Assembly (NCBI RefSeq): GCF_002924445.1
Contig: NZ_PIGG01000064.1
Location: forward strand, 124,001 to 188,000
Direction: 5' to 3'
Length of the DNA: 64,000 bases
Source: Minwuia thermotolerans
Lineage (GTDB): Bacteria > Pseudomonadota > Alphaproteobacteria > Minwuiales > Minwuiaceae
Of the stretch, positions 51,339-54,115 are shown piece by piece. The first letter of the stretch is position 1; each line of letters opens with the position of its first letter. The notes under the pieces were generated by a model that saw only the letters and a program-made list of their open reading frames with translations, was not told the origin of the DNA and did no database searches. The position numbers and the translations under genes are program-made.

Positions 51339-51917
51339 TCAGGCGCGGATTGCCTCGGCGTGGACGATCAGGCGCAGCGGTCCCGGCGTCTGAGCGTCCA
51401 GCGGCCAGCAGGTGGACAGCGCCAGCCGCGGCCGACCGTCCCGTTCCGCAGGGAAGCGCCAGGTCCGGCTGTCGACGACCTCGGCGCCGGTGACGCGGAA
51501 GCGGTGGGTCTCGCCGCCGCGTTCGATGACGACCTCCGATCCCGGCCCGAGATCGCCGAGAAAGGCGAGATGGGAATCGCGGTGTCCGGCGATCGCGGCC
51601 AGCCCCGGCGCGCCCGGCAGCGCGGTGCCGCGCACATGACCCGGTCCCCAGGCCATGGCCTCGCCGGAGGCGCTGTCGAGCACGATCGTCTCGACGCCGA
51701 GCGCGGGCGCCGTGAGGCGCGCCAGCGGACTCATGTCGGCGCCGGACCAGGGCGCGTCCCGGTTCCCGTCCCAGGCGCGCTGCAGCAGCACCTGTCCCAG
51801 TTCCGCCTTGGCGGCCATCCACGCGCCCTCGCCGGCGAGCCAGAGGCCGCCGATGGCGGACGCCAGCACCGCGCTCCGCGTCAGCCAGCGCCGCCGGCTC
51901 ATGCGGTCCCCGGTCAT
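51339..51917 (-). CDS. class GN sortase
   Basis: A 192-residue sortase of the class found in marine proteobacteria. One N-terminal membrane helix (VLASAIGGLWLAGEGAW) anchors a beta-barrel; the catalytic triad is His112 (AGHRDSH), Cys170 (LSTCWP) and Arg182 (PLRLIV). Sortases cut a C-terminal sorting motif of a partner. The partner gene is immediately upstream, overlapping by one base (TGATG), so the two are cotranslated. ATG 51917 is preferred; ATG 51902 is an alternative that still keeps the helix. Confidence 0.9.
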   Translation of the reverse strand: MTGDRMSRRRWLTRSAVLASAIGGLWLAGEGAWMAAKAELGQVLLQRAWDGNRDAPWSGADMSPLARLTAPALGVETIVLDSASGEAMAWGPGHVRGTALPGAPGLAAIAGHRDSHLAFLGDLGPGSEVVIERGGETHRFRVTGAEVVDSRTWRFPAERDGRPRLALSTCWPLDAQTPGPLRLIVHAEAIRA

Positions 51918-54115
51918 CAGGTGGTCCGGCCGGCTGGCCAGCGGCGGTGCAGCCGCCAGCCGGCGATGGCCATCAGGAGAAGAAGAAGCCCGGCCAGCAC
52001 CCGCGCCCGCCAGTCGAGCGAGCCGCGGGGAACCGGCGCGCCGGAGGGCTGGGGCGCGGCGGCGGTGCTGAGCCGGGCAAGTTCCGCCTGCGGCAGGGCC
52101 GCCTTGCGAAGTTGCGGGGCGGGGGCCGGGGCGTCGAGGAAACGCTCCGCGTTCCAGCCGGCAGGCAGGTTGAGCGGTACTTCGGTGGCGGTCGATTCCA
52201 CACCGTCGGGACGGCTGGGGGTGACGTCGACGGCGACCAGCGAGGTCAGCCGGCTGACCAGGCGATGGTCCAGCGCCGCCTGCAGGATCGTCGCGTCCAG
52301 CTTCTCTCGGCCCATCTCCCAGCCCACCTGGCTTGACGCCAGAGCCTCCAGTTTGCGGATGTGCTTGCGCGCCCACAGCTTCGCGATGCCGGCGCGGGGC
52401 GCGGCCTGGGCCAGATCGATCCGCCATTCGAAGGCGTCGCCGCCGCGGCCGGCGGTGAGCGACACCGTGCCCGCTTCGCCTTCCGGCGTGTGGAAGGCGA
52501 AGACGACCGGGTCGCCGGCGTAGAGATCGGGCAGGGGGTCGGGAGAGAGGTCGCCCGCGCCGTCGGGCAGGGCGGCCCGGAGATCGGTCAGCACAGGGTT
52601 CTCGATTTTCGCGAACAGCGCCGCCATCTGGCCGGCCACCTCGGTCGGATCGTCGACATAGACCACCGCGCCGCGGCCGAGTTCCGCCGCCCGGGTCATG
52701 AAATAGCTGTTGGGCGCAGAACCGATGCCGACCGTGAACAGCCTGGACCGCCCGAGGCCGGCGGTGATGGCCTGCAGCATCTGCGCCTCGTTGCCCACCG
52801 CGCCGTCGGTCAGGAAGATCACCTGGCGCAGCCGGTCCGTCTCGCCGGGCGTCGCGTCGGCCAGCGCCTCCTCCAGCGCCGGCAGCATCTCCGTGCCGCG
52901 GTCGGCGCGCATGGCTGCGACCGCCGAGAGCGCCTTCGCGATATTGCCGGGCGTCGCCGGCACCATGTCGGGCGCGTAGCGCCACATGCGGTCGTTGAAG
53001 AAGACGATGTTGAAGCGGTCCTCGGCCTCCAGGCGGCGCAACGCCTGCGCCAGTCCTTCCCGGGCCTGGCGGATCGATTCGCCGTCCATCGAGCCGGAGA
53101 CGTCCTGCACGAAGATCACGTCGCGCGCCGGCGCGTCCGTCACCGCTTCGGGTTCGGGCGGCGTCAGCAGGGCGAGGTAGTAGTCGCGGCCGCCGGCGCT
53201 TTCCCGGAACAGGGCCGCGTGGGGCGCCGCGCCGACGTCCGGCGTCCAGCGCAGCACGAAATCCCGGTCCGCCGGCACCGCGCCGTCCAGGGTGACCGTC
53301 GCGGCTTCGTCGCCGTCCCGGGCGACCGTCACGTCATGGTGGCGGCTCTCGACCGCGCCCAGTGGGAAGCCGGCCTGCAGGTCGACCGAAATGATGACGG
53401 GATTGTAGATGGTTCCTTCCGGCTGTTCGCGCGGATCGGCGAGCGGCGATTCGATCGCCTCCCGACCGGGCACACGATCGCGGATCGCCCAGCCGCCCGG
53501 ACCGAAATCGACGGCATGGACGACCGGCTTGGGATTGTAGCGCGGCGCGACCACCAGCGGCAGGCGCAGTTCGAACGCGCCGTCGGCCGGCGCCAGGGTC
53601 TGCAGCCAGGCGATTTCCACCACCACAACATCGCCGGGACCGATATTGGCCACGTCGTTGGTGAACAGGTTCGGGCGCTGCTGCTCCACCAGGGCGGCCT
53701 TGCGGCCTTCGGTGCGGGCCTGCTCATAGTCGCGGCGCGCCTGATCCCGCTCCTTGACCACGCCCTCGATGAAGCGGCCGCCGATCCGCATCTTCAGGCT
53801 GTCGACGGCGGATTCGTCGGGCAGGGGGAAGGCGTAGCGGCCGTCCACCCATTTGTCCGACACGTTCCGGAACCGCTGGGTGACGGTGGCCCGGACGACC
53901 GGACCGGAGATGTCGATGTCGAAGCTGGATGCGACCAGCGGCGCGCGGACATAGCGGCCGGGCTCGTCCGTCCGGAGCAGCAGGCTGCCCGAGGCCACAT
54001 CGTTCAGCGCGACCAGCCCGCCGCCCGGCGTCTGGGCCAGCGCCGGTGCGGCAACCACCGCGAGCAGCGCCGCCCGCATCCCCTGCCGCAGCAATTCCCG
54101 AATCCCGATCCGCAT
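51917..54115 (-). CDS. proteobacterial sortase target protein with VIT and vWA domains
   Basis: A 732-residue exported protein, the dedicated substrate class of GN sortases. It has a signal peptide (about residues 1-28), a VIT domain (about 30-170), a von Willebrand factor A domain with the MIDAS motif FVQDVSGSMDGES (about residue 330), and a C-terminal membrane helix (VLAGLLLLLMAIAGW) followed by basic residues. The LPXTG-like sorting motif expected ahead of that helix is not evident; the nearest match is a decayed LSTAA. The start at ATG 54115 (MRIGIRELL) follows the signal peptide shape. The gene forms a two-gene unit with the sortase. Confidence 0.9.
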   Translation of the reverse strand: MRIGIRELLRQGMRAALLAVVAAPALAQTPGGGLVALNDVASGSLLLRTDEPGRYVRAPLVASSFDIDISGPVVRATVTQRFRNVSDKWVDGRYAFPLPDESAVDSLKMRIGGRFIEGVVKERDQARRDYEQARTEGRKAALVEQQRPNLFTNDVANIGPGDVVVVEIAWLQTLAPADGAFELRLPLVVAPRYNPKPVVHAVDFGPGGWAIRDRVPGREAIESPLADPREQPEGTIYNPVIISVDLQAGFPLGAVESRHHDVTVARDGDEAATVTLDGAVPADRDFVLRWTPDVGAAPHAALFRESAGGRDYYLALLTPPEPEAVTDAPARDVIFVQDVSGSMDGESIRQAREGLAQALRRLEAEDRFNIVFFNDRMWRYAPDMVPATPGNIAKALSAVAAMRADRGTEMLPALEEALADATPGETDRLRQVIFLTDGAVGNEAQMLQAITAGLGRSRLFTVGIGSAPNSYFMTRAAELGRGAVVYVDDPTEVAGQMAALFAKIENPVLTDLRAALPDGAGDLSPDPLPDLYAGDPVVFAFHTPEGEAGTVSLTAGRGGDAFEWRIDLAQAAPRAGIAKLWARKHIRKLEALASSQVGWEMGREKLDATILQAALDHRLVSRLTSLVAVDVTPSRPDGVESTATEVPLNLPAGWNAERFLDAPAPAPQLRKAALPQAELARLSTAAAPQPSGAPVPRGSLDWRARVLAGLLLLLMAIAGWRLHRRWPAGRTT

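Follow-up and report, generated by a model that had tools for sequence, protein, structure and literature searches.

Proteins of the VIT/vWA family are described in a passage of PMC3237569 as carrying one of three kinds of C-terminal tail, namely an LPXTG signal accompanied by an adjacent TIGR03784 sortase, a PEP-CTERM signal accompanied by an exosortase, or a GlyGly-CTERM. Swaps of tails within the family have already been published, according to the same passage. The role of class GN sortases in Gram-negative bacteria is called unknown in an excerpt of PMC10581121, and the matches listed in our literature search included no experiments on an enzyme of this class. LPxGA is included among alternative anchor motifs in a section of PMC8286594; LPXGS, LPQGA, LPQGS and VPXGS were not found in the literature searched. 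In Ensifer adhaerens OV14, a gene annotated as a marine proteobacterial sortase target and paired with SMc01580 is differentially expressed, as stated in an extract from PMC6637203, and this gene could serve as a laboratory model.

The locus analyzed here lies in a stretch of 64,000 nucleotides from Minwuia thermotolerans (contig NZ_PIGG01000064.1, positions 124,001 to 188,000 of the forward strand), referred to as the window; all of its features described below are on the minus strand, in window coordinates. The preliminary description of this DNA had claimed a VIT/vWA protein with a membrane helix and a basic tail, and the analysis agrees. The gene at 51917..54115 encodes 732 amino acids, and the whole protein scores 704.2 bits with TIGR03788 (marine proteobacterial sortase target), above the curated cut-off of 551.65. 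A probable Sec signal peptide was read from the sequence at residues 1-28 (54032..54115), with a presumed cleavage site, and is followed by a VIT domain at residues 63-168 (53612..53929; PF08487, 108.8 bits) and a vWA domain at residues 332-483 (52667..53122; PF13768, 57 bits, with PF00092 also matching). The C-terminus runs ...QPSGAP-VPRGS-LDWR-[ARVLAGLLLLLMAIAGWRL]-HRRWPAGRTT. Its membrane helix spans residues 704-722 (51950..52006; maximum hydropathy over 19 residues, 1.77), the basic tail HRRWPAGRTT occupies 51920..51949, and the spacer LDWR between motif and helix (52007..52018) may be set beside LNWR and ANW, found in the two distant homologues nearest to the target. This tail has the motif, helix and basic end of the TIGR03788 type; VPRGS keeps the place and the loose pattern, while the letters of LPXTG are mostly changed. 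As to what the protein might do once displayed, protein binding would be our guess.

The sortase gene (51339..51917) lies downstream on the same strand and overlaps the target gene by one base, within the sequence TGATG (51915..51919), where the target stop codon occupies 51917-51919 and the sortase ATG 51915-51917. The same order and strand were found in all 76 pairs measured, the window included, with the first possible sortase start codon located between -25 and +436 bases from the target stop. The product, 192 amino acids with an N-terminal helix, belongs to the sortase superfamily (PF04203, 86.6 bits against a cut-off of 26.6), and its predicted fold is confident (mean pLDDT 93.5), with a class C sortase, 8t28, as best PDB match (E 2.3e-11). 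TIGR03784 is by far its best NCBIfam match (143.7 bits; runner-up 56.1) and yet falls below the class GN cut-off of 158.25, so we call the enzyme class-GN-type and not a certified member of TIGR03784. The catalytic residues are His112 (51582..51584), Cys170 (51408..51410) and Arg182 (51372..51374); across 76 aligned sortases the first two are invariant and the third is conserved in 74. Thus, the coupling and the intact triad of the GN sortase described earlier stand, whereas its class assignment has to be loosened. That this sortase also processes another protein, with the VIT/vWA protein only a secondary substrate, seems very improbable. The sortase gene overlaps the target gene, and a genome-wide search with PF04203 at E 0.001 returned the window sortase as its single match. 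In addition, a passage of PMC3237569 describes the family as a dedicated sortase beside its LPXTG protein, the sole one per genome.

The preliminary description also stated that there is no motif just before the helix. However, VPRGS, residues 695-699 (52019..52033; predicted cut between Gly698 and Ser699), ends four residues ahead of the 19-residue hydrophobic maximum. A scoring matrix built on 73 other targets gives VPRGS +4.9. Only one training motif lies lower (4.3), the next lowest being at 7.9; LPDGA, inside the folded part of the protein (residues 516-520), scores 7.25 and hence exceeds VPRGS, and two further sites come close to it, LPAGW (650-654) with 4.4 and QPSGA (689-693) with 4.3. 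In 20000 shuffles of the 39-residue stretch, a score as high as that of VPRGS arose at any position in 3788 cases and at the position of VPRGS itself in 125. Three of the four fixed positions of LPXTG are changed. The C-terminus was also aligned with a profile of 105 other C-termini, built without the window, L002, L034 and L063, in a comparison whose E-values refer to these four sequences only. There, VPRGSLDWRARVLAG... aligns with LPQTATpAplliliG... at 20.7 bits, which places VPRGSLDW opposite LPQTATpA; Pro is the sole identical letter among the five of the motif, and the helix supplies much of the score. By its letters VPRGS is therefore a weak motif, and it is singled out because of its place and the alignment of the homologues. 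The sequence proposed earlier as the nearest resemblance to a signal, LSTAA, is indeed present at residues 682-686 (52058..52072), but 17 residues, not about 24, separate it from the hydrophobic maximum, and with its score of -3.4 against +4.9 we do not take it for the sorting motif.

The absence of a motif was to count as refuted, in the preliminary description, if close homologues had a normal LPXTG-like motif at this place, and nearly all homologues carry one in a loose form. In the enlarged set, the pattern.P.[TGS][ASG] precedes the helix in 109 of 110 sortase-adjacent targets, as compared with 356 of 5400 random 31-residue stretches from the same proteins. The exception is L072, whose tail reads ALATATP and in which the motif Pro is gone too. 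The first set comprised L027 and 76 targets with a sortase seen; of these 77, 75 have the pattern ahead of the helix, 44 of them with the commonest spacing, 4. The first position of the motif in the 109 targets is Leu in 86, Tyr in 6, Gly in 6, Val in 4, Met in 4, and Phe, Ala or Ile in one each; the fourth is Thr in 81, Gly in 27 and Ser in 1; the fifth is Ala in 85, Ser in 21 and Gly in 3. Pro at the second position is fixed by the regular expression, so a count of 109 of 109 for it is circular. Since Leu is replaced in 23 of the 109 targets and Thr by Gly in 27, a strict search for LPXTG misses much of the family. Location relative to the helix, together with xPx[TG][AS], would be a better rule for annotation. 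A false anomaly is removed: the window target is not motif-less.

The homologue set was assembled without the weaker partial target matches. The count of 110 targets leaves out L070, the loci L031, L094 and L140, which are cut by contig ends, the duplicates L001, L003, L080, L081 and L095, and the loci of AlkZ-like genes, L096-L102. Not classed as sortase-adjacent were L027, L114 and L115, which are short loci with no sortase seen in them, and 12 homologues that do not reach the TIGR03788 cut-off. In L070 the target frame is broken and the family match resumes as a second piece; the adjoining sortase is open. Relatives of the target were also seen on 16 plasmid records (H1-H16), seven of them from Rhizobium, and 15 match at least 80% of the protein. 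Signals beginning with Gly (GPxTA, GPAGA) occur in L062, L064, L068, L069, L071 and L085, and these targets group together. Residue 42 of the sortase is Pro in all six of this group, as opposed to 1 of 68 others, nearly all of the rest having Gln; the Fisher values for associations between motif and sortase, this one included, take no account of relatedness.

The closest relatives of the window target have similar signals. The congeneric protein L002 has the same tail as the window at the motif, VPRGSLDWR, and the two distant homologues L034 and L063 read VPQTSANW and IPKTALNWR. These four group together in a tree of 84 targets with the C-terminal columns included (SH-aLRT 99), and again in a tree of 108 targets from which the last 90 residues had been removed (support 100); both trees carry long branches here, and the tree program warns on the join of L034 with L063. 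Relatives were sought in the orders of G293, G299 and G128 (15, 5 and 4 genomes, respectively), and the 108-row tree, enlarged with the added loci, contains no further member of the clade beyond these four rows. Because the window groups with the proteins having VPQTSANW and IPKTALNW, Val or Ile at the first motif position is a trait that runs in its branch.

To what extent the system is maintained can be judged within the genus. The congener G001 (95% identity) is collinear with the window along the compared stretch. Between the two, the target gene has a dN/dS of 0.19 and the sortase gene one of 0.24, values that indicate purifying selection on both. Of the neighboring genes, that of the AlkZ-like protein is similar (0.18) and three others are more constrained (0.04, 0.09 and 0.03). 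The codons of VPRGS are identical in both congeners, so these ratios speak for the whole genes and not for the motif alone. Seven genomes of the genus were searched with TIGR03788 and five had no match, one of these being only 89% complete, and the AlkZ-like genes of these five genomes have no target/sortase pair adjoining them within the flanks examined. Another genome of the family with the system is G008, whose signal is LPQTA and whose copy is distant on the tree. With a match missing in five of seven genomes and low dN/dS where the system occurs, it is patchy in the genus and yet maintained where present.

The same data bear on the possibility that the signal has been lost, i.e., that the vWA protein stays unprocessed in the membrane and the sortase is a relic. 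Such a loss might be read from the low score of VPRGS and its departures from LPXTG, and the genomes without a match imply that members of the genus can do without the system. We nevertheless regard it as very improbable: target and sortase genes are both intact and under purifying selection, the triad is complete, and a signal beginning with Val/Ile-Pro is retained at the equivalent place in two distant relatives. The earlier suggestion that the target is no longer processed thus finds no positive support, whereas the other one, a divergent signal, survives in mild form, as xPxGS with Val for Leu. Least probable is that another site in the linker is cut, since LSTAA has the negative score given above, and QPSGA, although it fits the loose pattern and scores close to VPRGS, reads PPSGA in L002, is separated from the helix by 10 residues, the commonest spacing being 4, and is passed over by the homologue profile in favor of VPRGS.

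We put the probability that VPRGS is the working signal of a normal sortase/target pair at roughly 85%. The pair, the motif in its place, the conserved triad and purifying selection on both genes can be read directly from the DNA. The locus would then hold an intact sortase system of the class GN (Gram-negative) type, with one enzyme and one target. The target would leave the cytoplasm by Sec, and its helix and basic tail would hold it in the inner membrane, where the sortase, itself membrane-anchored, would recognize VPRGS just outside the helix. Cys170 would attack the carbonyl of Gly698, Ser699 and everything after it would be released, and the thioester would be passed to an amine. Export of the target, the cut between Gly698 and Ser699 and the amine acceptor are features that we take from general sortase chemistry. 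We would give even odds to peptidoglycan as the acceptor, most plausibly through the free amine of meso-diaminopimelate, either in peptidoglycan or in lipid II. Val in place of Leu and Gly in place of Thr would be tolerated variants, to which this branch of the enzyme may be adapted. A passage of PMC9520033 reports that Ala or Ser after the cut is accepted by another sortase in vitro, and that in Streptococcus pyogenes sortase A the side chain of the motif Thr makes contacts that are impossible for Gly.

Two residues of the sortase provide leads as to whether enzyme and signal vary together. The first is Trp153 (51459..51461), which a predicted model places in the beta6/beta7 loop, after a strand ending at 149 and before one beginning at 163. 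Of 110 sortases, the four of the window's branch all have it and the remaining 106 lack it. According to a section of PMC9520033, the beta6-beta7 loop of S. pyogenes sortase A forms most of the pocket for the first motif residue. The comparison for Trp153 involves a single clade of four sortases, and it may mark ancestry rather than specificity. A simple rule whereby Val needs Trp is contradicted by L087, in another clade, which has the signal VPATA and His in this column. All four sortases of the branch fall below the TIGR03784 cut-off (window, 143.7; L002, 144.2; L034, 156.9; L063, 130.9), as against one of seven others scanned (L068, with the signal GPAGA, 153.2; the other six exceed it); the ten sortases scanned besides that of the window had trimmed N-termini.

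The second residue is Met88 (51654..51656), which goes with Gly at the fourth motif position; it is found in 18 of 27 pairs with Gly there and in 4 of 81 with Thr. With a phi of 0.66 it ranked first among 740 column-letter associations. A tree-aware test yielded, on average, 3.5 independent pairs that were concordant, 0.0 that were discordant and 4.5 that were uninformative, with a median p of 0.25; such a test needs at least 6 informative pairs to reach 0.05. L034 and L063, the nearest distant relatives of the window, have Met88 together with Thr. We entertain, as a tentative and rather doubtful extension, that class GN sortases and their adjacent targets have co-diverged into natural specificity types, in which the window's branch would read [VI]Px[TG][AS]xxW by means of the Trp loop, and Gly at position four would go with Met88. 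Should enzyme and signal truly be linked, adjoining pairs could lend themselves to studies of sortase specificity; if co-divergence is true, this family of one enzyme next to one target would offer a natural map of the evolution of that specificity.

Other tails of the VIT/vWA family were also seen among the homologues. L073, L074, L075 and L089-L093, all under the TIGR03788 cut-off, have tails that by eye are PEP-CTERM-like; three of these tails were scanned with TIGR02595, which was reached by L074 and L092 and not by L073. An exosortase match lies no more than about 1.1 kb from the target match in eight of the eight genomes of this kind examined, and 2 of 12 other genomes used for comparison (G217 and G299) have an exosortase as well. 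Three of the eight adjoining exosortases were scanned and proved to be XrtT, XrtQ and XrtT. Rhombosortases above the TIGR03902 cut-off are encoded at L076:1138-1992 and L079:3274-4140, beside VIT/vWA homologues with Gly/Ser-rich C-termini.

The window pair can be compared with three known systems. The VIT/vWA proteins with PEP-CTERM-like or Gly/Ser-rich tails share the scaffold with it, and a processing enzyme encoded nearby; however, their signal is another one, their enzyme is unrelated, and their scaffold falls below the TIGR03788 cut-off. Class D sortases share the sortase domain, and their signal LPXTA (PMC5148588, in an excerpt) resembles LPQTA, the commonest class GN signal, but the window sortase reaches only 52-56 bits against class D cut-offs of 140-165. 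The TIGR03788/TIGR03784 pair agrees with the window in its VIT and vWA domains, in the C-terminal order of signal, helix and basic tail, in having the sortase as the next gene, and in the single sortase per genome. It differs in the signal, where the window has VPRGS for the common LPx[TG][AS], and in the score of the sortase, 143.7 against 158.25 bits. Because the homologue searches fit the picture given in PMC3237569, we assign the window to this known kind, with a mildly divergent signal. The pair looks like an ordinary one of a substrate and the enzyme that processes it, the tag being slightly unusual.
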